Source: Gautieria morchelliformis (Eukaryota > Basidiomycota > Agaricomycetes > Gomphales > Gomphaceae). From it: DNA of 64,000 bases. A program made the translations under genes and the position numbers. Below are positions 30,017-64,000 of this stretch, one piece after another (positions within the stretch are counted from its first letter, which is position 1; each line of letters begins with the position of its first letter). The notes under the pieces were generated by a model, which was given only the letters and a program-made list of their open reading frames with translations, ran no database searches and had not been told where the DNA came from. The stretch covers positions 43,560 through 107,559 of the forward strand of contig WHVA01000400.1 of the NCBI GenBank assembly GCA_015179125.1. Reading direction: 5' to 3'.

Positions 30017-30400
30017 GGCCGTCGATCCGGACATGGACGCTGAACGCTGAAGTACATAACGTTTTTCCTTGATTGTGCGAATTTTTTAGAACCCAGGTGA
30101 TTAGTCCCTGTTGCGCAAAGGAGCTCTGGATTCTGTGATTTTCTAGTCTGCGCCTGTCTCTCCGAATACACAAGTCCAACAATCATGATACCGCAAATTC
30201 CTATAGGTGAAAGCGGCTCGGTGGGTTGTGGGCGTCGAGCTTATGTCAGGTTTTAGGTCAGCCTTAGTCAGCTGGCCAATCGGATGCGAGCGGCGCAGCC
30301 GCGAACCAAGAACGCTGCGCAGCATGGTCATGTGACCGTTTGCGTTCCAAATTAGGTCAGCAGCGAGCGGCGCAGCCGCGAGCATAGAACGTTGCGCAGC

Positions 30401-30476
30401 GGTCACGTGACCCGTTCGCGACCAGAGCGCGCATAAGCGAGCGTGGTCCGTGCACGACACGCGCGCGCGGTATAAA
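30401..30476 (+). promoter_or_regulatory. Helitron U1 promoter module
   Basis: GGTCACGTGACC palindrome at 30401-30412, GTGGTCCGTGCACGAC just downstream, and TATAAA at 30471-30476, followed by CT-rich sequence. The same order occurs in U2, U6 and U7. Confidence 0.65.
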
Positions 30477-30689
30477 GGCCGAATGGTAAGGAGGGAACGC
30501 CAGGAACCTGCCCAACCGCCGATTCCTCTGTCTGCTGTCTGCTATGTGCTCTGTCTGCTCTGTCCTCTGTGCTGTCTGCTATGTGCTCTGTCCGCTGTCT
30601 GCTCTGTGCTCTGCTGTCTGCTCTGGGTGCTGTCTCCTCCTTTAGCTGGCTGCCTGTCTATTGCTTTGCTGGCTTTCTATTGGTAGGTA

Positions 30690-31430
30690 ATATGTTTTGT
30701 TTAATCCATTGCCATGTATTTTATTTTATTTGTGTTTGTAATTTTATTAGTTCTTTTTTTTTTCATCATAGTATTGTCACATGTGTATTATATTTTGGTG
30801 ATTTCTTTCGAAAATAGATTTAAATACCTTCCAAAGACTGCTGAAAAAAATGTATTTTAATATCAATATTTTTCCGGTTTTTTTCGAAAATAGACATCAA
30901 TAAGTTCCCTCTAAAATTAATGAGATTCTGCTTTTAAATGTGGTTTGTTTTATTGTTTTATTTACTGTAAAGCCACTTACCAGCCACTCCTCTCTGGCTA
31001 TACTGGTGGCCGGCTTACTATGGCTTTGGCTGGGCTCTGGGTTTCTCTGTCAGTCTCAGGGCTTCTCTGGCTTTGGCTGGGCATTAATAACAGCCTCTGC
31101 TTCAATGTACTGTACTTTTTTGACATTTTTTCGCAGATAGATGTCAATAAATTATCCTGACTTTGTGAAAATTGTCAGCTTAAATGTACAGTGCATTTTT
31201 TTGACATTTTTCAAAAATAGATAATCTTGACTCTGCTAAAATTAATAACAACTTCAGCTTAAATGTACTGAACATTTATTTTGACATTTTTTGAAAAATA
31301 GATAATCCTGACTTTGCTAAAATTAATGACAGCAGCTGCTTAAATATGGCTTCCTTTACTATTTTATTTATATCTGTATATGTCACAAAATAGATATTGA
31401 TACATGTCCCTGAGTTTGCGAAAAGTTAAT
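30690..31430 (+). repeat. AT-rich leader repeats of Helitron U1
   Basis: Degenerate tandem units of about 80-100 bp, each with a T-rich tract, a TTTTTCGAAAATAG- or TTTTCGCAGATAG-like element, then ATxxCAATAAATTATCCTGACTTTG and AATGACAGC-like text. They match the leader units of U2, U6 and U7. Confidence 0.7.
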
Positions 31431-31469
31431 GATAAGTAACAACCCCTGCTCGCTTCACTTTGAAGCCCT

Positions 31470-32110
31470 TGGGGATATGCTACACATGCCATTGGGACAT
31501 GCTATGCATGCTATACTTGAGGGGCATGCTACACACACTAACATGCATGCTATGCATGGGGACACACGCTATGCTTGGGGACACCCATGTTATGCGTGGA
31601 GACACACATGTTATGCATGGGGACAAGCATGCTATGCATGGGGATGTGCACACTATATGTGGGGACACACTATGCTTGGGGGACATGGTACAAACAAGGG
31701 ACACACTACAGGGGAATACACTACAAACACGGGACATTCTACACATGCTATACTTGGGGGACATGCTACAAACAAAGGACATGCTATGCACACTATACTT
31801 GGGGGACATGTTATGCATTGGGGACACACTTTGCACACTATACTTGAGGGGGATGCTACACACACTACATGGAGGGACATGCTATGTTTGGGGACATGCT
31901 ACAAACCAGGGACATGCTATGCATGTGGGACACGCCATGCACACTGTACTTGGGGATATGCAACATGTGGAGACACACTATGCATGGAGGACATGCTACA
32001 CACACTATACTTGGGGACATGTTATATGTGGGCCAGGGACACAATAAGCATGCTATATTCGAGGCTATGCATGGAGGACATGCTATGCACGCTATACTTG
32101 GGCACATGCA
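31470..32110 (+). repeat. Minisatellite of Helitron U1 (17/21 bp)
   Basis: Tandem units of the form TATGCATGGGGACACGC with longer forms adding CATG. Apparent ORFs through it (Trp-Gly-His-rich on plus, Cys-Met-Ser-Pro-rich on minus) are by-products of the repeat. Confidence 0.9.
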
Positions 32111-32253
32111 GATATGTGTAGAGACATTACCTATCTTGATGTGTTACTTATAGCTACTTTCAATTGCAATGAGATGTGTTTTACTTATCCCAAGTTTGAT
32201 TTACCCAATGCGTTTGACCTACACCCCCGTGTGAAGCATGGGTATCCACCTAG

Positions 32254-33559
32254 AGGTAAGGGTTCAACAATCGAGTTAAGTTGGATATCAGAAATCGAGT
32301 TGGAAGGCAGAGGTCAGAGAGACAGAGGCCTTGCAAGTACTTGCTGTGGTAAGAACAGGAAACAGTGCAAAGAGAGTCACATATCAAAGTCAATTATCTG
32401 ATTGCAGAACAGAGGTACACATGACTGGGTTTTATACAAAGAGCTGAGACAACATGTCAGAAGGTAGAGGTAAGCAATTCCAGTGCAAGCAAAAGTAACT
32501 AGGATAAATGGAGTAAGTAACTAATACAGAACAAGAGGAACTACAAGGGGGTGCCGGGTAGAACTAAGAACAATCAATAGGCAAAAGAACAAGGGGAATG
32601 TGGGTCTAATTGATTGTTACGTATTGGAATTCCCGGAGGTCGGAACTGGACGGGACAACAGCTTCAAATTATGTGTTGCACCCCTGATGAACTACCATCC
32701 TAAGTATTTCGGGATTGACTTGCAGATATCGGAGAAGGCAGAAGTCGGGAACAGAGTACTGAGAGTCGAGGTTCGAGGGTCGGAGAACAAAGGTCAGAAG
32801 AGGCGGAAGAGGCGGAGGACACAGGGTCGGGAGCGGAAGGAGACAAGACTAGCAAAACTCGCTGTGCTAAGAACAGGAGACAGTGCGAAGGGAATCACAT
32901 ATCGAAGTTGATTATCTGATTGTAGGAACGGAGACATACATGAGGGGGTTTAATACAAAGAGCTGAAGCAACAGGTAATGGTATGGTACTAAGCAAATTC
33001 TGGAGAGTGCAGGAATCGGATAGACATACGGGGCAAGTAACTAATACGGAACAATGGGATGACAAGGGGGGTGCAGGGTAGGGTAAGTACAATGGCAAAG
33101 AACAAGGCAAGTAAGTACAATAGGCCTCGGAAGAAACAGAATTACGGAAATGGTATCTTGCTGTGTTCAGGGTCGAGTAAGGGGGCCGGTATCTGGAGGT
33201 GGCCAGGGGTACTGAAATCACAAGGGTCGAGGTAGAGGGTTGCGGATGGTGCGGATGTTGTGGAATAGAGTTGGAGGTGGTGTGGAGGCGGTGCAGAGGT
33301 GGTGCGGAGGATATGCGGATATGGCGGAGATGGTTGAGGGGAACAGTCGTAACATTGATAGTGGAACAAATGGATCTCCTGATGCTCTGGACTTGCTATG
33401 CTAAGGGTCAAGTAGGGAACGCCGGTGAATAGAGTCAAAAGGGGAAGTATGTGAATAGTAAAGAACAAGGGGATGAAAAGGTCAAAGTGTGGACATTGCA
33501 GAATAGAGCCAGAGGAGGCATGGAGGTACCAGAGTTGGTCAAGCAGCATGGTCATAACA
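32254..33559 (+). repeat. LTR family Y, truncated copy, interrupted by LTR Y2
   Basis: Aligns with the complete solo LTR at 63242-63911 from its AGAGGTAAGG block onward, but lacks the first roughly 130 bp. Ends CATAACA at 33559, followed by TTACC, as does the copy at 63911. The segment 32615-33354 inside it is the inserted LTR. Confidence 0.7.
32615..33354 (+). mobile_element. Solo LTR Y2 (740 bp) nested in LTR Y
   Basis: TGTTACG..CGTAACA ends with a perfect TTGAT duplication (32610-32614 and 33355-33359). Shares blocks such as GATTATCTGATTGTAG with the surrounding LTR, so the two belong to one superfamily. Non-coding. Confidence 0.82.
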
Positions 33560-33694
33560 TTACCTACCTTGATGTGTTACTTAGAGCTACTGTCAATCAA
33601 TAAGATGCATTTTACTTATCTGAAAGAAAATTTCTTATCCGAATGTGTTTGACTTATCCCAAGTTTGATTTACCCAAGGCGTTTGACTTGCACC

Positions 33695-33722
33695 CCCGCG
33701 CGAAGCGCGGGTATCCACCTAG
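33695..33722 (+). other. Helitron 3' terminus (hairpin + CTAG)
   Basis: CCCGCGC-GAA-GCGCGGG stem-loop, seven spacer bases, CTAG. Hairpin followed closely by CTRR is the canonical Helitron 3' end. U2 starts at the next base. Confidence 0.88.
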
Positions 33723-33889
33723 TCTAAGAGTGAAACGCGCTCAGTGGGTTGTGGGCGCTGCTGACCAATGCTTGGTCATTAGTTTGTCAGCGGAGCGCGC
33801 GAGCGGCGCAGCCGCGAGCCCCCCGGTCTGTTTAGGTCAGCGGCGAGCGGCGCAGCCGCGAGTTACAAACGCTGCGCAGCAGCGTTCCA

Positions 33890-33955
33890 GGTCACGTGTC
33901 CGGTTCGCGACCATACGCGAGGGTGGTCCGTGCATGACCCTTCGCTTGGTATAAA
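33890..33955 (+). promoter_or_regulatory. Helitron U2 promoter module
   Basis: GGTCACGTGTCC (one change from the palindrome) at 33890, GGTTCGCGACC, GTGGTCCGTGCATGACC, then TATAAA at 33950-33955. Confidence 0.65.
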
Positions 33956-34115
33956 GAGAGCGATGCCGCAGAACCGCACTCCCCACTGGTGTCCTCCTGT
34001 GTTCTGGCTGTGGTGGGCTTACTACTGCTTTGGCTGGTGTCTTTCTGTGTGTCTTTCTGTGTGTCTCTGGGTGTCTCTGGGCTTCTTTGGCTGTGAATTG
34101 ACACCAGCTTCTGCT

Positions 34116-34605
34116 TCAATGTCCTGTATATTTTTTGATATTTTTTCGCAAATTGCTATCAATACACCTAACTTGCTAACCTTAATAATAGCCAACTTAA
34201 ATATCCTGTACATTTTTTTGATATTTTTTCGCAAATAGCTATCAATAAACCTAACTTGCTAACCTTAACAATAGCCAACTTACATATCCTGTACATTTTT
34301 TGATATTTTTTCGCAAATAGACATCAATAAATCAAACTTGCTCACCTCAATAACAGCCACCTTAACTATCCTGTAATTTTTTTGACATTTTTTCGCAAAT
34401 GGATATCAATAACTTATACTGACTCTGCTCAAGTTGATAACAACTTCTGTTTTAATGTAGTGTGTTTTTGTTATCTTTTTTTGAAAAATAAATATAGATA
34501 TCAATGAGTTATCCTGACTTTGCTAAAATTAATAAGAACAGCTGCTTAAATGTGGTTTCTTTTCCTATTTTATATATGTCACAAAATAGATACTGATACA
34601 TGTCC
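34116..34605 (+). repeat. Leader repeats of Helitron U2 (about 83-bp units)
   Basis: About five to six units, each built as ATCCTGTACATTTTTTTGA, TTTTTTCGCAAATAG, then ATCAATAAA..CTAACTTGCTAACC and AATAACAGCCAACTTAA. Later units drift toward the TGACTTTGCTAAAATTAAT form that occurs in the RepHel leaders of U3 and U4. Unit boundaries carry GT..AG pairs, but about 31 bp apart. Confidence 0.8.
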
Positions 34606-34607
34606 CT

Positions 34608-35505
34608 GAGATGTGTGAGGACACGCTACCTGTGGGGACACGCTACCTGTGAGGACACATTACGTGTGGGGGCATGCTACCTGTGAGGACACGTTACGTG
34701 TGGGGACATGCTGCCTGTGAGGACACGCTACCTGTGAGGACATGCTACCTACCAGCGAGGACACATTACATGTGGGGACATGCTACCTGTGGGGACACAT
34801 TATGTGTGGGGACACGCTACCTGTGAGGGCACGTTATGTGTGAAATTGCTATCAATACACCTAACTTGCTAACCTTAATAATAGCCAACTTAAATATCCT
34901 GTACATTTTTTTGATATTTTTTCGCAAATAGACATCAATAAATCTAACTTCCTAACATTAATAACAGCCAACTTAAATATCCTGTACATTTTTTTGATAT
35001 TTTTTCGCAAATAGATAACTTATTCTGACTTTGCTAAAGTTAATAACAACTTCTGTTTTAATGTAGTGTTTTTTTTTTTATCTTTTTTCAAAAAATAAAT
35101 ATAGATATCAATAAATTATCCTGACTTTGCTAAAATTAATGACAACAGCTGCTTAAATGTGGTTTCTTTTCCTATTTTATATATGTCACAAAATAGATAC
35201 TGATACATGTCCCTGATATGTGTGAGGACACGCTACCTGTGGGGACATGCTATTACCTGTGGGGACATGTTACGTATGGGGACACACTACCTGTGAGGAC
35301 ATGTTACGTGTGAGGACACGTTACATGTGAGGACACACTACCTGTGGGATCATGCTACCTGTGAGGACATGTTACGTGTGAGCTACCTGTGAGGACATGC
35401 TACCTACCAGTGAGGACACATTACATGTGGGGACATGCTACCTGTGGGGACACATTATGTGTGGGGACACGCTACCTGTGAGGGCATGTTATGTGTGAGG
35501 ACATG
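34608..35505 (+). repeat. Minisatellites of Helitron U2 in two blocks
   Basis: Blocks at 34608-34845 and 35215-35505 of 17-bp units such as TACCTGTGAGGACACGC and TACGTGTGGGGACATGC. They are separated by a second copy of the leader repeats, implying a roughly 0.65-kb internal tandem duplication. Confidence 0.88.
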
Positions 35506-35507
35506 CT

Positions 35508-35823
35508 ATCCAACTGCACTTTGGGCCTTCCCCCATTTCTGATTTTGGTATTGTTTCTGGTTCTGTGAGAGTGTCCCCGGAGGATCGGCTGGCATATTGA
35601 TATAACCACATTGTCAAAATTCAGGATCCCCAAGATCACTATTGGGTCTATTTTACAATGCACGAGCTTTGAAACCTGTGGATTATGACAATAGGTGCAA
35701 TCTTATAATCTCTGATGATTCAGTCAAGACCATTACCACTTTCATGTCTAGAGTCGCTGGGAGGGCCATCCCAGAGGTTGAGAGAGAGTCTGCATGTTCG
35801 GCTGTTCCATGGGTGCATACATG
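35508..35823 (+). pseudogene. Captured coding fragment in U2, unknown protein
   Basis: One frame reads SDFGIVSGSVRVSPEDRLAY then a TGA, then YNHIVKIQDPQDHYW. After a one-base shift, ALKPVDYDNRCNLIISDDSV and TTFMSRVAGRAIPEVER follow. U6 has the same fragment without the TGA. I do not recognise the protein. Helitrons are known to pick up host gene pieces, so capture is the likely explanation. Non-functional here. Confidence 0.5.
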
Positions 35824-35930
35824 ATTCATGATACTATATGAACAGGGATATATTTTGCATGATCCTATTTACCCCAATGCACTTGACCTTACTGCTTCAC
35901 TTGCCCTTACTGAGGCGTTTGACCTACACC

Positions 35931-35958
35931 CCCGCGCGAAGCGCGGGTACCCACCTAG
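35931..35958 (+). other. Helitron U2 3' terminus
   Basis: CCCGCGC-GAA-GCGCGGG hairpin (35931-35947), spacer TACCCAC, CTAG at 35955-35958, directly followed by the U3 5' end. Confidence 0.88.
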
Positions 35959-36640
35959 TTCCTATAGGTGAAAGCGGCTCGGTGGGTTGTGGGCGTCGAG
36001 CTTATGTCAGGTTTTAGGTCAGCCTTAGTCAGCTGGCCAATCGGACGCGAGCGGCGCAGCCGCGAGCCAAGGACGCGGGTGGCGCAGCTGGCCCAAACCG
36101 GATCATGCCGGGCTGCCGGTTTGCGCCAGTCTTCTGGCTCCAGCGCTCAATGCGGCTGCGCAGCGTTCTGGAGCGCGCTCGCGGCTGCGGTTTATGCCTG
36201 TCTGCCGGCTCAGGCGCTCAAAGCAGCGCTGCGCTGGCAGAACGCTGCGCAGCCGCATCTGCGCACTCCACCACCCTCCTCTCCTCTCTGCCTACTAGAT
36301 AGAATAAAATTGTGTGAGAGTGAAACAATAGATAGCCTATATAGTGTAGACTACAAAAGATCTCTTCCCAGGGAGATCTCTGCTCTGAACTATTGGGGTT
36401 GACCTCTTCAGTGGGGCAGCTTTTTCTCTGCTAAGGAGCCAGGTAGTCATCCCAGGCTGCCTTAGAGGGAGCTACAATTGCATTGCAGTTCTCTTAGTGT
36501 TGACTTGCACTACTGGTGGCTGAAGAAGACATCTCCCAGGACCAGGACCAGGACCAGGACCTTTTACTGGAATTATTCCAGTTGGATAGCCGAAGAAGAC
36601 TTGGATATTTTCATCAATCAATTTCCCTGTCCCTTCCTTG

Positions 36641-36937
36641 GTATGTATATATTTCTCTGTGGTCTGGTGTGAGCCATCTGACATTTATTTATTTTATTTT
36701 AAATAGAAATTAATAAATTCCCTTGACTTTGCTTAACAAACAATTACCTGTCCCTTCCTGGGTATGTATGTATTTCTCGGTGGTCTGGTGTGAGCTGTCT
36801 GACATTTATTTAATTAGAAATTAATAAATTCCCCTGACTTGCCCAAGAAAAATTAACAACAGCTGCATCTGCTTGCAAATGTAAGTTGAATTGTGGTAGC
36901 TTGATTGTTCCTCTAAGCTTATGCCTGCACTTCTCAG
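36641..36937 (+). other. Duplicated exon-intron-like leader of U3 RepHel
   Basis: GT..AG segments at 36641-36706, 36762-36817 and 36881-36937, all with GTATGT or GTAAGT donors. The first two are tandem copies of one unit, as are the AAATTAATAAATTCCC-starting exon-like pieces between them. The last one covers the ATG at 36921, so if it is spliced RepHel must start elsewhere. An in-frame TGA in the exon just upstream argues for use of the ATG. Confidence 0.5.
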
Positions 36938-39900
36938 GGATCCATCTACTCCAGAGAGAAATCGTCAGCAGGAGCGTGAAAGGGCAAGGGAGGAGCAGGA
37001 GGGTCATATGACATCGCCCACTGATCGGAGAGCACGTGCGCTTGCTGCTGCTGCTGTCAGAGCTCAGGACCTGCCACCCCCTCCCCCACAGCCTTTTGCC
37101 ATCCCTCACCCTCCTCCTAGAAGCAATGTCGCTGATCCTTTTCAACAACCTGTGGCCGGGCCATCACGTCCTCCTATGCTTGCACCCTCTTCACGTCTGC
37201 CCATGCTGGCACCCTCATCACGTCCTCCTAATCTCAGTCCTGGAGAGCAGGTGGCAGCCCTTCATGCTCAGTTAGCAGTTATCCCACCATTACAGCCCCT
37301 GAGAAGAAATAGGCCAGACCCTGTACAGCCAGCTCCTATAGTAGGTTCAGCAGCCATTGCAGACTTGCGTGCTCAGGCAGCTGCATTGCGGCCTTTGGGA
37401 AGGCACAGGCCTGCATCTGTACAACCAGCGCCTCCTCCTGTAGTAGGTTCTGCAGGAGTGGCAGCATTGCGTGCTCAGGCCAATGCAATAAGACCAATGC
37501 CTCCGCTACTCCCTGCGCTTTTGCGGCCTCTTCAGCGACTCCCTGCACCTCCTCAGCCTCCTCAGCCACTCCCTGCACCTCCTCAGCCTCCCCAGATGTT
37601 CCCTGCACCTCCTCAGCCTCTCCCTGCACCTCCACAGCCTCCTCAGCCACTCCCTGCACCTCCTCAGCCTCCTCAGCCACTCCCTATGCCTCGGCAGCGT
37701 CCTCAGCGACCTCCTCCTTTTATTCCACTCGGTCGCTCTAGAATAATCGAGGCAGATGTGCTGCGTCATGATCTGGGTCCCATGGTTGTTCCCTGCCCTG
37801 ACTGTGGAGCATTACACTGGATGGCAGAACGCCTGCAGAAATCCTCAAATGTGCGACCCAGGTTTGGTGATTGCTGTATGGAAGGAAAGGTGCAGCTGGA
37901 AGACCTGCCAGAGCCCCCTCAGCCATTGAAACAGCTCTTAGAAGGCCAGGACCCTGAGGCAAAAGGATTTCGCCAGAATATCAGGCAGTATAATGCTGCG
38001 TTTGCATTCACTTCTGTGGGGGCCAACTTTGACCAAGATTTGCTTCGGGAGGGTCGTGGTCCATATGTGCTCAAGCTACAGGGTGAACTGTATCATCTCC
38101 ATGGCTCTCTCCTCCCTGACAATGAAGACGATCCAAAGTATGCCCAGCTTTACATATATGATCCTGCACTGGCTTTGGCAAAGAGAAAAAATCGTAATGA
38201 GCGTCTGTCTCCAACTATCATGGGAGACTTGCAGGAAATGCTCCTGCTATGCAATCCTCATGTGCGCACATATAAACAAGCAGCTGAGAGGCTCAGAGCT
38301 CAAGAACAGAATGGTGACATCCAGGCAAGGCTCACATATAGGGCACACAGGGATCCTAGGAGATATAATGTCCCAACTGCAGATGAGATTGCAGTCGTTC
38401 TTCCTGGAGATGGCATCGACCCTGGACCTAGGGATATTATTGTCCAGCTCAGAGGTGGCGTTTCAGAAGGGTATTGGATACCAATGCAAACTATGCCTCT
38501 CTGCACTATGTCTTGCTCTTTCCCAAGGGAGAGTTGGGATGGGAACCAGATATTCCTTATCATGAGCCAGAGCGTGCTCGGCAGGCCAATCCCAATCAAA
38601 CAGACGGACACAGGTCACCCAAATACAGTACCATGCGTATCGTCTGTTCCAGAGAGCGAGAGAACCTACAACACTCCTGCGTGGTGGCAAATTGTTCCAG
38701 CAGTACATTGTAGACTCCTGGGCTGCTGCAGAGCAAAGCAGACTGAGGTGGATCAGGGCCAATCAACACACTCTGCGTGCTGAGCAGTATAACCAGATGG
38801 TAGATTCATATGGAGGCTTGGACAATGACATTGGAGATGCAAACAGCTTGGGTGTAAAAGTCATTCTGCCTGCGACATTTCAAGGGAGTACACGGGACAT
38901 GAATCAAAACTGCCAGAACTCCCTGGCCATTGCAACAAAGAAGGGTCCCCCTGATTTATTTATTACCATGACTGCCAATCCAAAGTGGGATGAGATAGTG
39001 GCCGAGTTGCTCCCTGGACAAACTGCTCAGGACAGACCTGACCTGGTGTCGCGGGTGTTTCACCTCAAAAAGAAATACCTCATTGACTTGATCGTCAAGG
39101 ACAAGATCTTTGGAGAAACCGTCGCTCGCGTTCACACTATTGAATTCCAGAAGAGGGGGCTCCCACACATGCACCTGCTTACCTGGTTCGATAGGGAGTC
39201 CAAGGTCAAACATCCACATGAGGTGGATTCTATGATTTCAGCAGAGTTCCCTGATCCAGAGACACATCCTGTCCTCTACCAGTTGGTCTGTGAGCTGATG
39301 ACACATGGTCCCTGTGGACAAATGAATCCAGATGCACCCTGCATGGAAAATGGCAAGTGCAAGAAAGGCTTCCCAAAGCCATTCTGTGAGGAGACCGTTG
39401 TGAATGTAGATGGATATCCAAAATATCGTCGTCGCAATGATGGAAGGCTGCACAATGTCAGAGGTCACATGCTGGACAACAGATGGGTTGTGCCATACTC
39501 TGCTCTGCTCTTGCTCAAACTCCGGTGTCACATCAACCTTGAATTCACCTTCAGTGTGAGGTGCGTCAAGTATATCCACAAGTATCTATACAAGGGCCAC
39601 GATCGGACCACGATGGAGTTTGGTGTCAACCATGATGAGATAAAGAAGTACCTGGACGCTCGCTATGTCAGTGCTCATGAGGCCTGTTGGAGGTTGCTGG
39701 AGCGGGAAATCCACACCCAGGTGCCTGCAGTCATGGCACTGCCAGTCCATGAAAAAGACCAGCAATCAGTCGTTTTCAATCCTGATGCTGATCCGCTCAC
39801 CATCATGAACAGGGTTGAGGGGTCAAAGACAGCGCTCATGGCTTACTTTGAGGCCAATGCTGCCTACCCTCATGCACGCGATGTGCTCTATGTGGATTTT

Positions 39901-41916: not shown

Positions 41917-42050
41917 TTTCTGATATCTACTTGATGCAAATTGATTGCTTTGATTTTCCCCAATGCACTTGACCTTACTGATATGTTAGACTTACCGATG
42001 TGTTAGACTTACTGATGCATTTGACCTTACCGAGGCGTTTGACTTGCACC

Positions 42051-42078
42051 CCCGCGCGAAGCGCGGGTATCCACCTAG
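42051..42078 (+). other. Helitron U3 3' terminus
   Basis: CCCGCGC-GAA-GCGCGGG (42051-42067), TATCCAC, CTAG at 42075-42078, with U4 starting at the next base. Confidence 0.88.
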
Positions 42079-49895: not shown

Positions 49896-50333
49896 TCAGC
49901 GACCTCCTCCTCCTGTTCCACTTGGTCGCTCTAGAATAATTGAGGCAGATGTGCAGCGTCATGATCTGGGTCCCATGGTTATTCCCTGCCCTGACTGTGG
50001 AGCATTACACTGGATGGCAGAACACCTGCAGAGATCCTCAAATCGGCGGCCCAGATTTGGTGATTGCTGTATGGAAGGAAAGGTGCAGCTTCCAGAGCTG
50101 CCAGTGCTCCCTCAGCCATTGAGACGGCTCTTAGAGGGCCAGGACCCTGAGGCCAAACAGTTACGCCAGAACATCAGACAGTACAATGCTGCATTTGCAT
50201 TCACTTCCTTGGGAGCCGAGTTTGATCTAGATTTGCTTCGGGAGGGTCGTGGTCCATATGTCCTCAAGCTGCAGGGCGAACTGTATCATATTCATGGCTC
50301 TCTCATCCCTAACCCTGGGAGGCGGATACAGTA

Positions 50334-50831: not shown

Positions 50832-50844
50832 CGCCCCCTCAAGC

Positions 50845-53800: not shown

Positions 53801-55089
53801 ATCAATACTTTTCCAGCAGCATTAGATATTGTGCATTTCTGGCCACCGAGTCGAATGTCGTAGCCAGCATCATCGCACCGACCGATCGAGACGAGGGTAG
53901 CAGCAATTTTGGGTGCATAGTATGTATCTTGCAACGTGACTTCTACTGTTCTATCTCCAACCTTATTGGATAATACGAGCAGTCCTGAGCCGAAGGCATC
54001 AAAGGTACCTTTGTTGGCTGCTCGGATAGTCCTCGGCTGTGAGAATTGACAGTAGTTCCTCAATAAATTTTTGTGAGGAGTCATATGCGATGTCGTTCCG
54101 GTGTCGAGTATGACTATAACTCCTGAGGATGTGCTCAAATTGAAATTAGAGCACTCGTCAAAATTGGTGAAGGCAAGATGCCCATCACCACTTTCCTCAG
54201 AAGTAGACTCTTCTTCGGCAACATTCGCTTTTGCTTTACCCTTCTTCTTCTTCTTGCCTTTGGCTTTCTTCTTCTGGCGTGGTCCTTGACCTTCTTTACC
54301 ACCTCCTTTAGCCCAGCAATTTTCGATGGAATGTCCAGGCTTTTTGCAGTTGGTGCATACATGCGCCTTCTGCCCCTTCTGGTCCTTCTTAGTAGATGAA
54401 CCAATAAACACCTGCTCTTCTTGCGGGAGTGTTTTCTTCCTGTCATACTGAGCCTTTAGTACCCTAATAATATTATCAGGGACCAATGGCATCCCGCATT
54501 CTTCAAGCGAAGTGGTAAGGGCGTTCATGACTGCCTCATAGGATGGTGGAAGTGATGCAAGGATGATGTCCATGAATTCTTCTTCGGAAACTCTGGCTCC
54601 CATCTCATTAAGACGAGCATATAGGTCTTGGGCCTTGTCCAAGTGATCTCTCAAATCTCCATCCTCAGGACATCTCATACTGCGGAGTTGTCTCTGCAGG
54701 CTGGTGAGGACCATCTTGGGCTTTTTGGTCATTTCATTGACCAGTGCATCCCAAGTCTCTTTTGCTGTCTTCTGCTTCTGTAGCATCAGGGCTAATGACT
54801 CTGACACTGAGACGATGATTTGGGTCTTGGCTTGTCCTTCTCTAGCAAGGTATCTCTCCAGCTTCTCCTCAGCCTTATCCATCTGAGTTTCCTCAGCTTC
54901 TGTAAGAATATGGCCTGGGGGCATGACTGGAGGATCAGGAGGTCTAGTGACTCTCCCTTCTACATGCTTGAGTAGATTTTTGGACTCGAAATAGCTGATG
55001 AGAGTGGCTCGCCACAATGGCCAATTACTACCATCAGTAGCAAGCTTCTCAACACCCAATAGCTTCTCAGAAGTGTCTCCGGGGCCCAT
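50845..55089 (-). CDS. copia Gag-Pol polyprotein, full length (1,414 aa)
   Basis: A single frame whose ATG lies five bases inside the 5' LTR. Order: UBN2-type Gag (about 1-230); CCHC knuckle (C245-x2-C-x4-H-x4-C258); Lys-rich patch; aspartic protease LDTGTTSH (D329); integrase zinc site (H460, H465, C494, C497); catalytic D525, D588 and E624 (35 residues between the last two); RT from about 900 with AVDD at about 1097-1099; RNase H (YSDADWG, SSTEAEFVAL, DNQSAIAI). It would make the particle proteins and all enzymes for copying and inserting the element. All motifs are present. AVDD for YVDD is shared with copy 1, so it belongs to the family rather than being a lesion. Confidence 0.95.
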   Translation of the reverse strand: MGPGDTSEKLLGVEKLATDGSNWPLWRATLISYFESKNLLKHVEGRVTRPPDPPVMPPGHILTEAEETQMDKAEEKLERYLAREGQAKTQIIVSVSESLALMLQKQKTAKETWDALVNEMTKKPKMVLTSLQRQLRSMRCPEDGDLRDHLDKAQDLYARLNEMGARVSEEEFMDIILASLPPSYEAVMNALTTSLEECGMPLVPDNIIRVLKAQYDRKKTLPQEEQVFIGSSTKKDQKGQKAHVCTNCKKPGHSIENCWAKGGGKEGQGPRQKKKAKGKKKKKGKAKANVAEEESTSEESGDGHLAFTNFDECSNFNLSTSSGVIVILDTGTTSHMTPHKNLLRNYCQFSQPRTIRAANKGTFDAFGSGLLVLSNKVGDRTVEVTLQDTYYAPKIAATLVSIGRCDDAGYDIRLGGQKCTISNAAGKVLMQAPKVNGLYRLDLQSPSAQAHMCLSAMEIHQKMGHISQKSLQHLLNHGMILGIELSSTGDRIVCDACIQAKIARKPLPREPRDRTSKFGDRIYSDVWGPARHLTIDKKSYYVSFIDDYSRESVIYLMANKSEAFSKYKLYEALMLRQRNVHIKALVSDRGGEYMSSEFEQHLAKQGTKHQLTVHDTPESNGVAERLNRTLTERTRAMLLESSLPKILWGYAIQHANYLRNRTHTRALPDKTPYEMIHHEKPNLKDIHAWGTEIYVKITQGDKLAARAKRARWIGISAQSHGHYVYWPDSHKVSVERNVVFDSEMKKGKVPIISIEESKLPTSKEEKKAIPASVPMPGRLVSEEAKIEEIDESAPEEYLEKLQPIQGVDDRPREAEPIRRSERIRQQQVQPAPSGPVTRSQTQRQAGAHMTTLAYEDVEDHKEVLFDQELSSEIDGISSYECAISAFLTDGQNNNKAPDLSQIEPSNADEALNNPMWKKSMDKEYEALIDKGVWERTKPPPGANIVGNKWVYLWKRNPEGKPIVPKSRMVAQGFTQKFGIDYDETYSPVARLSSLRIICAIAARNDWPIHQMDVDYAYLNAKLPEPIYMKQPYGYESGDKGEVLLLKKALYGLKQSGREWYKRLSGEFHKLGFTTSATDGAVFYRRGGKGHVIIATAVDDLTITAENQSVLDEVKRDLAQVFSMKDLGEIHWLLNLKIERDWQKKTIAISQPAYIEKIIKKFNLEDAKTYATPLDPAVKLSKDQCPSTERGKKAMSKFPYRQAIGSLMWAAVATRPDIAFAVSLLSQFLENPGGTHWNAVKRVFKYLKGTKHYKLTLGRNQDGLMGYSDADWGSQSHRRSYSAYLFQIDGGTVSWSCQKQSIVALSSTEAEFVALTHAGKEALWMRHFISEIFQPLNRPIQVCSDNQSAIAITYGTQQHTRTKHFDIRLYFLRDIIKNQQAKLVYLPTEQMLADILTKGLPSPRVKILNEQIGIY

Positions 55090-55094
55090 AACCC

Positions 55095-55592
55095 TGTAAA
55101 GGACAGGAATTATAGGCAGTAGGTATGGACTTGTTATTCAAAAGAATAGACTAGAAATCAATTCACTCTCTCAGTGAATTTAGTGGTCACTATAAATATA
55201 TTATACACTACCTAGAAATCAATTCACTACAGATGATTTCTAGGTCAATAAATGCAAAGACTACTAGACTAATTTACTTGCCTCTCTCAGTGAATTTAGT
55301 GGTCACTGAGAGAGGGGGAAATGTGTTCCACTGCGCATGTACTACTACCCGGCCCTTTAGCGCCCAAGGGCTCGCGCGTCGAAGTCATTTCAGACTCCGC
55401 TGGGTGCAGCCGCTTGTGAAAGTAGGAATAACAAGATGAAATAGAGAGATAAGAAATGAGTGGAAAATTTCGAAAATAACCAGAGAAATGGATGCATAAT
55501 ACAAGAGCAATGTGAGAAGAAATTGGAAGGCCACACAACAAATTGGATATATTATGCTTGATTTTGGTGCAGGAGCATGAATGCACCCAACA
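55095..55592 (-). repeat. 5' LTR of copia copy 2
   Basis: 498 bp. Drives the minus-strand gag-pol, whose ATG is at 55089. Confidence 0.95.
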
Positions 55593-58500
55593 CAGTATGC
55601 CCAACTTTATATATATGATCCAGCATTGGCTTTGGCACAGAGGAACACGCGTAACCCAGGTCTGTCTCCAACTATCATGGGAGACTTGCAGGAAATGCTC
55701 CTCTTATGCAATCCTCATGTTCCCATATATAGACAAGCGGCTGAGAGGCTCAGAGCTCAGGGACAGAATGGTGAGATCCGGGCTAGGCTCACGTACAGGG
55801 AACACAGGGATCCTAGGAGGTATAATATCCCTACTGCGGATGAGATTGCGGTGGTTCTTCCTGGAGATGGCATCATCCCTGAACCTAGGGATATTATTGT
55901 CCAGCTCAAAGGTGGATGTTTTAAAAGGGTATCCAATATGAATCCAAACTATGCCTCTCTTCACTATGTCTTGCTCTTTCCCAGGGGAGAGTTGGGGTGG
56001 CAACCTGGTATTCGCTATCGCCAATTACCAGGCGGGCGTGAGCGACCTGGGCGTGTCACCCAAATTCAGTATCATTCCTATCGTCTCTTCCAGAGGACAG
56101 AAGAACCTACAACACTCCTGCGTGCTGGGAAATTATTCCAGCAGTACATTGTAGACTCTTGGGCCGCTGCAGAGCAAAGCAGGCTGAAGTGGATCAGGAC
56201 AAATCAACACACTCTCCATGCTGAGATGTATAACCAGATGATGGATGCCTTTCATCGCAATGACAATGACAGAGATCCAAACAACTTGGGCACAAGGTCC
56301 ATTCTGCCTGCCACATTTCAGGGGGGGACACGGGACATGCAGGAAAACCTCCAGAACTCTCTGGCCATTTCAAGGAAGCATGGTGTGGCTGATCTCTTTA
56401 TTACCATGACTGGCAATCCCAACTGGCAGGAGATATTGGATCCGTTGTTGCCTGGACAAACTCCTCAGGACAGACCTGACCTGGTGTCATGGGTGTTCCA
56501 GCTCAAAAAGAAATACCTCATTGACTTGATCGTCAAGGAAAAGATTTTTGGGGAAACCGTCGCTCGCGTGCACACCATTGAATTCCAGAAAAGGGGACTC
56601 CCACACATGCATATTCTTATCTGGTTTGAAAGAGATTCCAAGATCAGACATCCACATGAGGTGGATTCAATGATTTCGGCAGAGTTCCCTGATCCAGAGA
56701 CTCATCCTGTCCTCTACCGGTTGGGCTGTGAGCTGATGACACATGGTCCCTGTGGACAATTGAATCGAAAAGCACCCTGCATGGAAAATGGCAAGTGCAA
56801 GAAAAACTTCCCAAAGCCATTCTGTGAGGAAACCAGTCTGAATGAGGATGGATATCCAAAATATCGTCGTCGCAATGATGGAAGGCTGCACAATGTCAGA
56901 GGTGACATGCTGGACAACAGATGGGTTGTGCCATACTCTGCTCTGCTCTTGCTCAAATTCTGGTGTCACATCAACCCTGAGCTCACCATCAATGTGAGGT
57001 GTATCAAGTATATCCACAAGTATCTCTACAAGGGCCATGATCGGACCACCATGGAGTTTGGTCGCACCCAGGATGAAATTAAGCAGTACCTGGACGCTCG
57101 CTATGTCAGTGCTCACGAGGCCTGTTGGAGGTTGCTGGAGCGGGAAATCCACACCCAGGTGCCTGCAGTCATGGCACTGCCAGTCCATGAAAAGGACCAT
57201 CACACAATCATCTTTGATCCCAACCAGGATGTGGACAACATCCTGGAAAGGGCTGAGGCAAAAAAGACACCGCTCATGGCTTACTTTGAGGCCAATGATA
57301 TCTACCCTGAAGCACGTGATCTGCTCTATGTGGAGTTTCCTGAGCATTTTACCTGGCACTCACAGGAAAAGGTATGGACACCACGCCAAGGAGGTTATAG
57401 CATCGGTCGCCTTCACTTTGCAAACCCTAGATCAGGAGAGAGATTTTTTGTGCGCACTCTCCTCACAGTGGTCAAGGGGGCTAGATCCTTTGAGGAGCTT
57501 AGGTCGGTGGATGGCATACAATATGCTACTTACAAGGAGGCCTGTCGTGCAAGGGGACTTCTGGATGATGATCAGGAGTTGAGGTTGTGTCTCCAGGAAG
57601 CCAGTGGCATGAAAACAGGTGCTCAGCTCAGACATCTCTTTGCCACCATCCTTGGCCATTGCAATCCATCGGGTCCTGGCAGACTATGGGATGGCTTCAG
57701 GGAGCACATATGTGATGATCTCAGACATCAGCTCCAAATCAGACATGGTATGCAGGATACACAGGACGATCAGGTTTATGATTTTGGCCTCTTTCTCTTG
57801 GAAAAAATCCTCCAGCAGGGTGGAATGTCCTTGAGCAGCTTTGATGATATGCCTCGGGTGGCAGGCGAGTGGGAGGCCCTCATTGGAAACAGGTTCATAG
57901 CTGAGCAGAGGGACTATGACCCTGTTGAAGAGAGGAACATAGCTGATGAGGAGGTTCCCAAGCTGAATGAGGGGCAAAGGTCTGCGCATGATCAGATATT
58001 ACGGTCGGCACTGACCAGAGATGCTCATGGGAAACCTGATGGACAAATGTTTTTTGTCACTGGCTCAGGTGGCGCCGGGAAATCATTCACATGGAACACT
58101 CTAATCCACTCCTGTAGAGCGGAGAGCCTCATTGTGATTGCAGTAGCCTCATCTGCAATGGCTGCACTTATCCTCACTAAGGGTACAACCTCTCATAGCA
58201 TGCTTGGAATTCCCATTCCTGTCCATGAGCGCTCTTTCTCCTCCATCAAAAAGAACTCTGACAAGGCTGACATGCTGAGACAGGCCAGTCTCCTCATCTG
58301 GGATGAGGCTGCAATGCAGCATCGCCATGCCATAGAGGCCATTGACAGGACACTGAGGGATTTCCTTGACCAGCCTGACAGACCCTTTGGTGGCATCACA
58401 GTTGCCTTTGGAGGTGACTTTCACCAGACTCTGCCAATTGTCCCTAAAGGCTCCAAGGAGGATATCGTGGGAGCTACCCTTCAGAAGTCATATCTGCGGC

Positions 58501-59475
58501 CAAAGATCAAGGTCCTCCATCTGACAGAGAACATGCGGGTGAGAAATGACCCTGACAGAGCCAGGTTTGCAGAATGGCTGCAGAATGTGGGCCAGGGAAA
58601 GGATCTCCCCCTAGATCATACGTGCTCACTCCCTCCTCACATGGTTTGTGGCCCTGGAATTGAAGATCTGATCCAGGAAATATACCCTGGCATTGGCAAT
58701 CAAGTCCCTGTCCAGGACAATTACTTTCTGGAGCGTGCCATCCTCTGTGCCAGAAACACTGAGGTCAATGAGATCAATTCCATGGTGTTTAGGGAGTTTC
58801 CAGGTGATGCTCAGGTCTTGCACTGCGCAAATTCCATTGAAGAATCCGACAATGCAGATCGGTATCCTGTGGAGTATCTGAATTCCATAGAGATGGGCTG
58901 TCTTCCTCCTGCTCGCTTGGAAGTCAAGCCTGGAGTGCCTCTGATGCTGTTGCGCAATTTGGATCAGAAGCAAGGACTATGCAATGGGACAAGGTTGCGG
59001 TTGGTGAGGATAAGCATTAGAGTGTTGGAGGTCAGGATCATCTCAGGTCCATGTGCAGGCAATATTGCTTTCATCCCCAGGATCATCATTAAGCCATCAG
59101 AGGGAGAGTTGCCATTTGTGCTGCAAAGGAGGCAGTTTCCAGTGCGTTTGGCATTTGCAATGACTATCAACAAGTCTCAAGGACAGTCTTTGGGTACGGT
59201 TGGGCTGGACCTGAGATATCCAGTGTTTGGACATGGTCAGTTGTATGTTGGTGTATCAAGAGGGACCAACTGGAACAGAGTGAAGGTCTTGCTTGAGGAG
59301 GGTTTGGACACAACCAACATTGTATATAAAGATGTATTACTTAGAGCTCCTTGATTTTATTATATCCACTTCTCTTGATATGGTTTATGTGTGTTACTTG
59401 ATTTTACTTGATGCAAATTGGTTACTTTTATTTTCCACAATGCACTTGACCTTACCGATGCGTTTGACCTACACC

Positions 59476-59503
59476 CCCGCGCGAAGCGCGGGTACCCACC
59501 TAG
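59476..59503 (+). other. Helitron U5 3' terminus
   Basis: CCCGCGC-GAA-GCGCGGG (59476-59492), TACCCAC, CTAG at 59500-59503, followed directly by U6. Confidence 0.88.
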
Positions 59504-59650
59504 TCTAAGAGTGAAACGCGCTCAGTGGGTTGTGGGCGCACCGCTGACAAATAATGTTATGTAAAAATTAGGTCAGCGGAGCGAGCGGCGCAGCCGCGAG
59601 CCCTAGGCCTGGCCCAGGCCAGACCATTGACGCTGCGCAGCAGCGTCCCA

Positions 59651-59714
59651 GGTCACGTGACCGGTTCGCGACCATACGCGAGTGGTCCGTGCACGACCCT
59701 TCGCTTGGTATAAA
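59651..59714 (+). promoter_or_regulatory. Helitron U6 promoter module
   Basis: GGTCACGTGACC at 59651-59662, GGTTCGCGACC, GTGGTCCGTGCACGACC, TATAAA at 59709-59714. A (TGTGTCTCTGGGTGTCTTTC)n run follows at 59800-59930. Confidence 0.65.
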
Positions 59715-59959
59715 GAGAGCGATGCTGCAGAACCGCACTCCCCACTGGTGTCCTCCTGCGTTGTAGCTGTGGTGGGCTTACTACTGCTCTGGCTGGGGTC
59801 TTGGTGTCTTTCTGTGTGTCTCTGGGTGTCTTTCTGTGTGTCTCTGGGTGTCTTTCTGTGTGTCTCTGGGTGTCTTTCTGTGTGTCTCTGGGTGTCTTTT
59901 GGTGTGTCTCTGGGTGTCTCTGGGCTTCTTGGCTGAAAATTGACACTAGCTTCTGCTTC

Positions 59960-60350
59960 AATGTCCTGTATATTTTTGATATTTTTTCGCAAATTGCTAT
60001 CAATACACCTAACTTGCTAACCTTAATAATAGCCAACTTAAATATCCTGTACATTTTTTTGATATTTTTTCGCAAATAGAAATCAATAAATCTAACTTCC
60101 TAACCTTAATAACAGCCAACTTAAATATCCTGGATATTTTTTCGCAAATAGATATCAATAACTTATTCTGACTTTGCTAAAGTTAATAACAACTTCTGTT
60201 TTAATGTAGTGTGTTTTTTTTGTATCTTTTTTCAAAAAATAAATATAGATATCAATGAATTATCCTGACTTTGCTAAAATTAATGACAACAGCTGCTTAA
60301 ATGTGATTTCATTTCCTATTTTATATATGTCACAAAATAGATACTGATAC
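59960..60350 (+). repeat. Leader repeats of Helitron U6
   Basis: Four or five of the roughly 83-bp units described for U2, the last two in the TGACTTTGCTAAAATTAAT form. Confidence 0.78.
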
Positions 60351-60359
60351 ATGTCCCTG

Positions 60360-60770
60360 ATATGTGTGAGGACACGCTACCTGTGAGGACACGTTACGTG
60401 TGGGACATGTTATGTGTGGGGACACGTTACGTCTGAGGACACGCTACCAGTGGGGACACATTACGTGTGGGGACATGCTACCTGTGAGGACACGTTACGT
60501 GTGGGACATGTTATGTGTGGGGACACGTTATGTGTGGGGACACGCTACCTGTGGGGACACATTACGTGTGGGGACATGCTACCTGTGAGGACACGCTACC
60601 TGTGGGGACACATTACGTGTGGGGACACGCTACCTGTGAGGACACGCTACCTGTGAGGACATGCTACCTGTGGGGACACCTTACGTGTGCGGACATGCTA
60701 CCTGTGAGGACACGTTACGTGGGGGGACACGCTGCGTGTGAGGACACACTACGTGTGAGGACATGCTATC
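60360..60770 (+). repeat. Minisatellite of Helitron U6 (17 bp)
   Basis: More than 20 units of TACSTGTGRGGACAYGY type. Apparent ORFs at 60400-60802 are repeat by-products. Confidence 0.92.
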
Positions 60771-61102
60771 CAACTGCACTTTGGGTCTTCCCTCATTTCT
60801 GATTTTGGTATTGTTTCTGGTTCTGTGAGAGTGTCACCGGAGGATCAGCTGGCATATCGATATAACCACTTTGTCAAAATTCTGGATCCCCAAGATCACT
60901 ATTGGATCTATTTCACAATGCACAAGCTTTGAAACCTTTGGATTATGACAATAGGCGCAATCTTATAATCTCTGATGATTCAGTCAAGACTATTACCACT
61001 TTCATGTCTAGAGTCGCTGGGAGGCCCATCCCAGAGGTCGAGAGAGAGCTCTGCATGTTCGGCTGTTCCATGGGTGCATACATGATTCATGATACTATAT
61101 GA
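60765..61102 (+). pseudogene. Captured coding fragment in U6, unknown protein
   Basis: A frame from the minisatellite edge reads SDFGIVSGSVRVSPEDQLAY, then NHFVKILDPQDHYWIYFTMH, and stops at 60930. A one-base change of frame continues as ALKPLDYDNRRNLIISDDSV, KTITTFMSRVAGRPIPEVER, MGAYMIHDTI and stops at 61102. The frame break is at the same place in U2, so it predates their separation or marks an unrecognised intron. Function unknown. Confidence 0.5.
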
Positions 61103-61191
61103 TCAGGGATATATTTTGCATGATCCTATTTACCCCAATGCACTTGACCTTGCTGATGCATTTGACCTTACCAAGGCGCTTGACCTACACC

Positions 61192-61219
61192 CCCGCGCGA
61201 AGCGCGGGTACCCACCTAG
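61192..61219 (+). other. Helitron U6 3' terminus
   Basis: CCCGCGC-GAA-GCGCGGG, TACCCAC, CTAG at 61216-61219, then the U7 5' end. Confidence 0.88.
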
Positions 61220-61343
61220 TTACACTATATGAAAGCGGCTCGGTGGGTTGTGGGCGCACTGCTGACAAATAATATTACGTAAAAATTATGTCAGCGGCGA
61301 GCGGCGCAGCCGCGAGCAATGAACACTGCGCAGCAGCGTCCAC

Positions 61344-61400
61344 GGTCACGTGACCCATTCGCACGTGGTCCGTGCACGACATGCGCACGCAGTATATAAA
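61344..61400 (+). promoter_or_regulatory. Helitron U7 promoter module
   Basis: GGTCACGTGACC at 61344-61355, GTGGTCCGTGCACGAC, TATATAAA at 61393-61400. Confidence 0.65.
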
Positions 61401-61609
61401 GGCAGTTCGGTAGGGTGGAACGCCAGGAATCTGCCTGACCGGCAATTCCTCTCTCTGCTGTGTCTGCTCTCTGCTTTGTCTGCTGTGTCTGCGCTGTCTG
61501 CTGTCTGCTGCGCTCTCTGGTGTCTCCTCCTTTAGCTGGCTGGCAGTCTATTGCTTTGGTTGGCTGGCTATCTATTGGCTTGGCTGGCTTTCTATTGGTA
61601 GGTAATATC

Positions 61610-62345
61610 TCTTTTTTAATGCATTCCCATGTATTGTATTTTATTTGTGTTGGTAATTTTATTGCTTCCAAATTTTTTTTTTCATCATATTGTATTGTCA
61701 CATGTGCTTTATATTTTTGTGAATTTTTTCGAAAATAGATTTAAATAAAATCCCAAGACTGTGCTGAAAAAAAGTGTTTTTATATATATATTTTTCAGGT
61801 TTTTTTCGAAAATTGACATCAATAAGTTTCCTCTAAAATTACTGACAATAGGTTCTACTTTTAAATGTGGTTTGTTTTGTTGTTTTATTTACTGTAAAGC
61901 TGCCAGGCACCCCTCTCTGGCTATACTGGTGGCTGGCTTACTATGGCTGTGGCTGGGCTCTGGGTTTCTCTGTCAGTCTCTGGGCTTCTCTGGCTTGGGC
62001 TGGGCATTAATAACAGCTTCTGCTTCAATGTACTGTACTTTTTGGCATTTTTTCACAAATAGATGTCAATAAATTATCCTGACTTTGTGAAAATTGACAA
62101 CAGCTCCAGCTTAAATGTACAGTGCATTGTTTTGACATTTTTCGAAAAATAGGTATCTTGACTCTGCTAAAATTAATAATAACTTCAGCTTAAATGTACT
62201 GGACATTTGTTTTGACATTTTTCAAAAAATAGATAATCCAGACTTTGCTAAAATTAATGACAGCAGCTGCTTAAATATGGTTTCCTTTACTATTTTATTT
62301 ATATCTGTATATCACAAAATAGATATTGATACATGTCCCTGAGTT
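61610..62345 (+). repeat. AT-rich leader repeats of Helitron U7
   Basis: Counterpart of 30690-31430 in U1, aligned almost throughout with scattered substitutions and small indels. Confidence 0.72.
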
Positions 62346-62399
62346 TACTAAAAGTTAATGAAAAGACAGCCTCTGCTTGCTTCACTTTGAGGCCCTTGG

Positions 62400-63190
62400 G
62401 ATATGCTACACACGCTATGCATGGGGACACGCACGCTATGCATGGAGACACATATGTTATGCATGGAGACATGCATGTTAGGCGTGAAGACATGCATGTT
62501 ATGTGTGGAGACATGCATGTTAGGCGTGGAGACATGCATGTTGTGCATGGGGACACGCATGCTATGCTTGGGGACATGCATGTTATGCGTAGAGACACAC
62601 ATGTTATGCATGGGGACAAGCATGCTATGCATGGGCACACACACACTATGCATGGGGGTGTGCACACTATATGGTGGGATACACTATGCTTGGGGACATA
62701 CTATGCTTGAGGACAGACACTATGCTTGGGGGACATGGTACAAACAAGAGACACACTACACACACTATGCATGGGGAAAAACAAGGGACATTCTATACAT
62801 GCTATCCTTGGGGGACATGTTATACGCTATGCATGGGGGACACACATGCTATAATTTAGGGACATGCTACATTTGGGGACATGCTACAAACCAGGGACAC
62901 GCTACACACAAAATACTTGAGGGATATGTTATGTGTGTGGGACATGCCACACACACTGTACTTGGGGACATGCTGCATGTGGGGACACACTATGCACACT
63001 ATACTTAGGGACACGTTACAAACAAGGGACACACTACACACACTATACTTGAGGGACACACTATGCACACTATACTTGGGGACACAGTACATGTGGGGAC
63101 ATGCCACCTGTGAGAACACGCTACGTGTGAGGATGCGATATGTGTGAGGACAGATGAAGTGTGATGACAACTACAGGTGAGGACATGCTA
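62400..63190 (+). repeat. Minisatellite of Helitron U7 (17/21 bp)
   Basis: Units such as TATGCATGGGGACACGC and 21-bp forms with an added CATG. At the right end it changes to the TGTGAGGACACGCTACG form seen in U2 and U6. Confidence 0.9.
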
Positions 63191-63241
63191 CACATGAGGT
63201 AGGGGACACCAGACATGGGAGAAATGTGTAGAGTCATTACC

Positions 63242-63911
63242 TGTTATGTATCGTTTGGCTCTAAAAGATGCGGCTTCAACTTATATGTTGCGCCCCCAAC
63301 TATCATCCTAATATTTTGGAGATTGGAGATCAGAAGTTGGAAGAGGTCAAGTATTATAACTGAGAGGTAAGGTTCAAGAATTAAGTGAAGTTGGATATCG
63401 AAATCGAGTTGGAAGATGGAGGTCAGAGAGGCAGAGGCCTTGCAAGTACTTGCTGTGCTAAGATAGGAAACGGTGCAAAGGGATCACATATTAAAGTTGA
63501 TTATCTGATTGTAGAACAGAGGCATATGTGACTGGGTTTTATACAAAAGCTGAGACAGCATGTCAGAAGGTGAGAGGTAAGCAATTCCAGTGCAAGCGAA
63601 AGTCCACTAGGATACATGGAGTAAGTAACTAATGCGGAACAAGAGGAACTACCAGGGGTGCAGGGTAGAACTAAGAACAATGGGCAAAAGAACAAGGGTG
63701 TGTAGGTCTAATTGATAGCAAAACAAATGGAACTTCTGATGATCCAGACTTGCTATGCTGACAGTTGAGTACGGAAGGCGGTGAAATCGGCAATAGGGAA
63801 GCTGTGAATAGGAAAGAACAAGGGATCAAAAGGTCCAAAGTGCAGATGATGTGGAATAGAGTTGGAGGAGGTGGAGGTACTGGGACTTGGTCAACCAGTA
63901 TGGTCATAACA
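63242..63911 (+). mobile_element. Solo LTR of family Y (670 bp) in U7
   Basis: TGTTATG..CATAACA ends with a perfect TTACC target duplication (63237-63241 and 63912-63916). Complete relative of the truncated LTR at 32254-33559. No coding potential. Confidence 0.85.
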
Positions 63912-64000
63912 TTACCTACCTTGAATGTGTTTGACTTATCCCAAGTTTGATTCACCCAATGCATTTGACCTTGCTGATGCATTTGACCTCACTGATGTGT

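Follow-up and report, generated by a model that had tools for sequence, protein, structure and literature searches.

Mixed head-to-tail Helitron arrays in Gautieria morchelliformis and their possible growth by insertion at resident 5' ends

A 64,000-nucleotide stretch of the genome of the basidiomycete Gautieria morchelliformis (hereafter the window; bases 43,560–107,559 of contig C450 in an assembly of 122 Mb and 1113 contigs) carries an array of seven Helitron units, all on the forward strand and joined head to tail through six base-exact CTAG|T junctions with zero spare bases between them (Table 1). On balance, we favour the reading that separate Helitron insertions, each made at the 5' A|T of a resident copy, built up this array as a stack that grows in the 5' direction. 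A broader proposal, which we advance more tentatively, is that the family as a whole may be self-targeting, its Rep protein directing insertions mainly to the 5' terminus of a resident and in one fixed orientation; most of the family would then lie in mixed stacks, the order of which would be a record of insertion from 3' (old) to 5' (young).

The array had been recognized in a preliminary description of this DNA as seven abutting head-to-tail Helitrons with seven hairpin-plus-CTAG termini. The six junctions named there are right to the base and share a single orientation, and six of the termini are exact; the seventh, at 32253, is no present unit boundary and lies inside unit 1. Each of the first six units is terminated by CCACCTAG, and the 5' starts that directly follow at the six junctions are of three types, TCTAAGAG (four times), TTCCTATAGG (once) and TTACACTATATG (once). 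At its 5' edge the array reads CCGCAAA|TTCC and two paralogous loci free of the array (on contigs C183 and C278) read CCGCAAATAACCC, from which it follows that the array occupies an A|T site. Contig C450 stops inside unit 7 at the end of the window, so the 3' edge of the array is not covered by this contig.

The assignment of the units to canonical Helitron1-like Helitrons, as predicted from their sequence features, is supported by the presence of Helitron_like_N and PIF1 domains, the CTAG end, the hairpin and the A|T target, in agreement with the identity first given to them. Rep (Helitron_like_N, PF14214) and a PIF1-type helicase (PF05970) occur together in open reading frames (ORFs) of units 3, 4 and 5. 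The coding part of unit 3 consists of two overlapping ORFs (36921–38783 and 38692–41916), the second of which carries both domains and the first of which has zero Pfam matches; the ORF of unit 4 (43013–47962, 1649 amino acids) is uninterrupted, and in unit 5, which measures 6115 bp once an inserted copia element is subtracted, both domains are carried by ORF 55581–59354. The 3' hairpin has a folding energy of -9.6 kcal/mol at the 33722 and 42078 ends and at the 35958-type end, the stem of intact ends finishing 11 bases before the terminus, and -6.5 kcal/mol at the slightly changed 48124 end. The TCTAAGAG type of 5' end begins with TC, and the other two types in the window begin with TT. The unit-4 RepHel protein has 1424 relatives, and the best 120 of these include proteins of Coprinopsis, Antrodiella, Phanerochaete and Psilocybe at 42–46% identity, of Rhododendron at 43–45%, and one weak soybean match.

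Exact-pattern matching across the assembly indicates how common such junctions are. The exact 3' end GCGAAGCGCGGGTANCCACCTAG is present in 811 copies (reversed-pattern control 0), and CCACCTAG is directly followed by TCTAAGAGTKAAACG 304 times, by TTCCTATAGGTGAAAGCRGC 77 times and by TTACACTATRTGAAAGCRGC 62 times, giving 443 strict head-to-tail junctions (reversed-pattern controls 0); the genome-wide look at CTAG/5' junctions suggested in the preliminary description thus bears out the abutment seen in the window. Some 660 insertions placed at random on AT sites would be expected to produce ∼0.03 junctions by chance. A further 162 5' ends (85 + 77) preceded by A, C or T were listed, in rows that require A, G or T twelve bases upstream, which misses about one quarter, and that leave out elements with G as the immediately preceding base; some of these rows are duplicate contigs or one site repeated, 15 flanks occurring more than once. 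After correction for the restriction on the upstream letter there are ∼216 non-junction 5' ends, and about two-thirds of all strict 5' ends abut a 3' end.

Outside junctions, the insertion site of the family is an A|T step, and no target duplication is formed. The base before the 162 listed 5' ends is A in 155 cases and T in seven, and three type-1 5' ends are listed in which G, but not AG, stands in front, one of them after the 3'-end-like CCACCTGG. On the other side of the element, a base other than T after the 3' end is listed once, by a pattern that sees about three-quarters of such cases, against 811 ends overall. The A|T site is symmetrical, yet the junctions are one-directional, with no exact head-to-head junction either in the 162 rows, which can reveal such a pair for TCTAAGAG residents, or in 39 rows covering the two other 5' types. 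One head-to-head pair with 5 bp between its members is present on C590, and a 12-base flank match, AACTTTATACTA, is a real opposite-orientation case; the other reverse-orientation suffixes are mostly 5-base matches and were not counted. The suggestion in the preliminary description that the array arose by repeated insertion at the T next to CTAG can be retained for repeated insertion; that site is not the best-supported one, since elsewhere insertion is at A|T and scars point to A|T steps at the 5' end of residents or slightly inside it.

These scars bear on the order of insertion. Of the 162 flanks, 21 end in at least 6 bases of another element's 5' terminus; 18 such tags derive from the TTCC and TTAC types and three from TCTATAG and TTGC termini, the latter two being deduced from the sequence after 3' ends in sampled loci (stretches drawn from low-numbered contigs, at the first 100 of the 811 3'-end places). 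Six of the 21 are one repeated double tag, TTCCTATTCCTA. Tags also form a ladder, C846 reading host-TCTATAGTA-TCTATAGTA-TTCC and C493 reading host-TCTATAGTA-TTCC. On C1070 the sequence CTAG-TTCCTA|newcomer is followed ∼9 kb on by CTAG|TAGGTGAAAG, and the two sites are probably the halves of one split resident. On C133 (locus L029, C133:14750–16900) a TTCC 5' fragment of ∼710 bp without a 3' end stands behind 17 bp of host sequence, and a second copy of these 17 bp immediately precedes a full resident TCTAAGAG unit; the arrangement suggests that an insertion at the A|T of the resident itself was aborted. Of the 76 listed 3' edges, 10 pass into what is left of a resident 5' end that points the same way, and four into one that points the opposite way (one listing of 3' ends took only T then A or G after the end, with the last letter not A). 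The three 5' types are also distributed differently between 5' edges (85/63/14) and internal positions (304/77/62; chi-square 31.2, p 1.7e-7). A hybrid 5' end, TTCCTATATATGAAAG, which looks like a TTAC-type end headed by the initial six bases of the TTCC type, was seen at L044 (C256:160267), and 8-base TTCCTATA scars found elsewhere would fit residents with such an end.

A mechanism for growth at the 5' edge can be outlined. The Rep/helicase of the family would preferentially target resident copies at their 5' end, where the host A and the resident's first T together form an A|T site at which Rep would nick to begin transposition. A newcomer inserted there would leave CTAG|T, with zero spare base and in the same orientation, and would rebuild A|T at its own 5' end, such that the stack would gain units on its 5' side (5' accretion), the youngest of them lying at the 5' edge; small misses would strike A|T steps a few bases inside the resident 5' end and leave short tags. 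A left-end Rep cut in the resident serving as target may thus account for exact abutment, fixed orientation and the rebuilt A|T. As described in the text of PMC4778049, the Rep of Helraiser, given single-stranded substrates, makes its left-end cut in the top strand exactly in front of 5'-TC, double-stranded DNA being uncut in the same test. Growth by 5' accretion is favoured because of the combination of A flanks (155/162), tags (21/162), ladders, the C133 fragment, the 443 junctions and the lack of any exact head-to-head junction in the rows examined.

Several observations weigh against this reading. The split between same and opposite orientation at 3' edges (10 versus 4) is not significant (p 0.18). 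The over-representation of the TTCC type at 5' edges (63/162 versus 77/443, p 1e-7) fits a youngest unit at the edge solely if TTCC is the youngest type. Among types able to give tags, A-flanked and CTAG-flanked residents carry them in 5/77 and 2/139 cases (p 0.10); a wider count (7/162 versus 2/443, p 0.002) uses denominators that are too wide because TCTAAGAG residents have no A|T for such a tag, and the comparison leaves out tag lengths 7 and 8, to which the pattern is blind after CTAG, and the six identical TTCCTATTCCTA flanks, in which the upstream base is hidden. In 13 of the 162 flanks the newcomer is placed at CCACCTA(G) or no more than a few bases past it, which indicates that some newcomers land at 3' ends. 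Four of these 5' ends (on C364, C592, C802 and C803) stand after CCACCTA without the final G (CCACCTA|T) and are unexplained by A|T insertion. Helraiser Rep is also reported in the text of PMC4778049 to make a precise right-end cut on both strands, and a right-end cut would serve insertion at 3' ends equally well.

Contig pairs were also considered as clues to the direction of growth. C683 differs from the left flank of the window at 11 of 2204 aligned columns, seven of these differences falling in the final columns next to the edge, and holds a unit 99.0% like unit 3; C450 and C683 differ at the 5' edge, where C683 also has an 8-base scar and lacks AA, and so do not form a clean plus/minus pair. 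Also unfavourable to 5' accretion, C45/C1074 and C47/C732 have a common 5' flank and first-unit start and different downstream sequence. The difference in C45/C1074 falls within ∼50 bp of a contig end and the units of C47 and C732 are 94% alike at their ends, so both pairs may be misjoins. C256 and C385 (L045/L047) agree in the end of a unit and in a right flank of ∼950 bp (1587 columns, 99.7% identical) and have different left flanks. With scars, contig ends and unlike left flanks making all four pairs ambiguous, none was retained as evidence, and as far as the sequences can be compared the contig pairs appear to give no clean direction of growth. Other candidates were set aside: the common 5' flank of C179/C1009/C140 is another repeat, with copies 80–88% alike; C652/C981 and C476/C1079 are 99.9% alike in the pieces compared, have the same first unit and are uninformative; and a comparison of last-unit with first-unit types could assign only 12 of 23 3' edges to a unit, which is too few. 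Three copies of another repeat (L026, L027 and L028; 80–88% alike) each have a Helitron at a corresponding position, to within one base.

The most serious alternative to 5' accretion, which we regard as possible although distinctly less probable, is that newcomers enter at the 3' end of a resident, between CTAG and T (G|T), perhaps via Rep cleavage at termination, with growth at the 3' edge or at internal junctions. Insertion at G|T yields the same exact junction and orientation, and it is consistent with the 13 flanks located at a 3' end or immediately beyond it, with the agreement of C45/C1074 and C47/C732 at the start of the first unit and their difference after it, with the precise cut by Helraiser Rep on both strands at the 3' end, and with the text of PMC2267711, where GT insertion is named as one option for a maize pair. 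However, it would require as many as 443 insertions with G on the 5' side, whereas elsewhere the flank is A in 155 of 162 and G is rare; it leaves the tags, the ladders and the C133 fragment unexplained, and the two contig pairs in its favour are those that may be misjoins.

Assembly misjoins, or ectopic recombination between copies, are an improbable source of the order of units. The array in the window does stop at a contig end, and the common right part and unlike left flanks of C256/C385 would reflect either ectopic recombination between Helitrons or misassembly, so that the exchange between elements raised in the preliminary description is partly upheld. Homologous exchange or misjoins can reshuffle neighbours, but they cannot make 443 base-exact CTAG|T joins.

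Rolling-circle multimers, in which replication passes the terminator and concatemers of one element integrate, would predict neighbours that are copies of each other. Neighbours were compared for the contigs with complete listings (numbered up to C316), using strict junctions, with lengths that may span missed boundaries. These contigs hold 142 junctions in 84 clusters, of which 48 are single and the largest, on C269, has eight junctions. Of 58 pairs of neighbouring junctions, 24 share their type, where shuffling leads one to expect 28.3 ± 3.0, and neighbouring unit lengths agree within 2% in 0 of 22; in the window, units 3, 4 and 5 are mutually 80–98% alike over most regions, with one stretch at 69%. 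Since neighbours on these contigs are not copies of each other in type or length, multimer release is rejected as the main source and, as the origin of these arrays, is very improbable, even though plant and bat tandem Helitrons have been read so (in the texts of PMC5876387 and PMC4067079) and a decayed terminator in unit 1 is consistent with read-through; the preference for repeated insertion over multimer release expressed in the preliminary description is upheld.

The decayed terminator is the 32253 end, which has a hairpin of -3.5 kcal/mol (z -0.6) and is followed by A, not T. The same decayed end, together with the sequence that follows it, recurs within units at seven other sampled loci (L014, L015, L016, L017, L020, L021 and L022, of which L016, L017 and L020 are ∼98% alike). 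The weak hairpin, the A after the end and the recurring internal context argue that 30198–33722 is one unit, and we infer that 32253 is a terminator that was bypassed and is now internal to it. Failure to stop at the terminator, also proposed in the preliminary description, is thus kept solely as an inference for this end and is not upheld as the main source of the array. A 3' end with the same decayed hairpin at L015:1052 nevertheless abuts a TTAC-type 5' end, so that decay by itself is no mark of an internal end.

The copia element in unit 5 is young. A second copia (6788–12044; ORFs 7291–9627 and 9929–11533) is 98.9% identical to it over the whole length. On the reverse strand, a NACHT/NPHP3_N ORF adjoins an ORF with 14 WD40 stretches (22667–26292), coded by a 129-bp repeat (13.8 copies, 94% alike); this is an NLR-like gene whose repeats are highly uniform. 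An integrase with Tf2-like SH3 and chromodomain (16735–17817, reverse strand) is a gypsy-type remnant.

Table 1. Components of the Helitron array, in window coordinates and in the order as assembled (LTR, long terminal repeat)
Feature	Position	Strand	Length (bp)	5' type	Basis
Host AAA at array 5' edge	30195..30197	+			Empty paralogous site AAA|TAACCC (C183, C278)
Unit 1, non-autonomous Helitron; internal decayed 3' end at 32253	30198..33722	+	3525	TTCCTATAGG	A|TTCC edge, CTAG|T end
Unit 2, non-autonomous; 80–83% like unit 6 over their two longest alignments	33723..35958	+	2236	TCTAAGAG	Exact junctions
Unit 3, autonomous type	35959..42078	+	6120	TTCCTATAGG	Exact junctions; Helitron_like_N and PIF1
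Unit 4, autonomous	42079..48124	+	6046	TCTAAGAG	Helitron_like_N, PIF1, Pif1_2B; exact junctions
Unit 5, autonomous type split by copia	48125..59503	+	11,379 (with copia)	TCTAAGAG	Exact junctions; Helitron_like_N and PIF1
Copia LTR retrotransposon inside unit 5	50334..55592	-			Target duplication CAGTA; LTRs 498/499 identical
Unit 6, non-autonomous	59504..61219	+	1716	TCTAAGAG	Exact junctions
Unit 7, non-autonomous as far as seen	61220..64000	+	Cut by contig end	TTACACTATATG	Exact 5' junction

Tandem Helitrons are already known; the scale, the mixture and the evidence on order are new here. Our literature search, from whose coverage most subscription journals fall outside, found no report of mixed head-to-tail Helitron arrays on such a scale. 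The origin of head-to-tail Helitrons has so far been argued from single pairs or from arrays of like units, the candidates being multimers and insertion at either a 3' G|T or a 5' A|T, and hundreds of mixed junctions in one genome make the question testable. If 5' self-targeting is correct, the target choice of a eukaryotic rolling-circle transposase would be directed by its own donor site, the order within an array would serve as a relative clock, and large mixed clusters could form away from genes.

Among known systems, HELPO1 and HELPO2 of Pleurotus ostreatus (PMC4289320) are likewise basidiomycete RepHel Helitrons with clusters, described in a main text that does not use the words 'tandem', 'array' or 'head-to-tail'. 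Bat tandem Helitrons and plant centromeric arrays (as cited in the texts of PMC4067079, PMC5876387 and PMC5148889) are also head to tail and have been attributed to bypassed termination or rolling-circle amplification, whereas the neighbours described here are of mixed types and lengths. FoHeli of Fusarium oxysporum and the triple tandem of Metarhizium acridum show repeated short 5' termini and an element 2 bp upstream of another's 5' end, as here, and in the text of Chellapan et al. (PMC5148889), where the repeated 5' termini are described, 5'-end insertion is one of two readings of the triple tandem; those elements have Helitron2-type ends, unlike the present family, with its CTAG ends, its A|T target and most strict 5' ends abutted. 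A further parallel is that of adjacent head-to-tail Helitrons in maize, where, as here, CTAG is directly followed by TC at a G/T junction between unlike neighbours. In the text of Du et al. (PMC2267711) the origin of this one pair is left open between the GT 3' of one element and the AT formed by the host A and the first T, and the maize lines with the upstream Helitron alone fit the 3' model or excision, which is a further point against 5' accretion. The maize case is a single pair of open order, whereas the G. morchelliformis genome provides 443 strict junctions together with scars that bear on that order.

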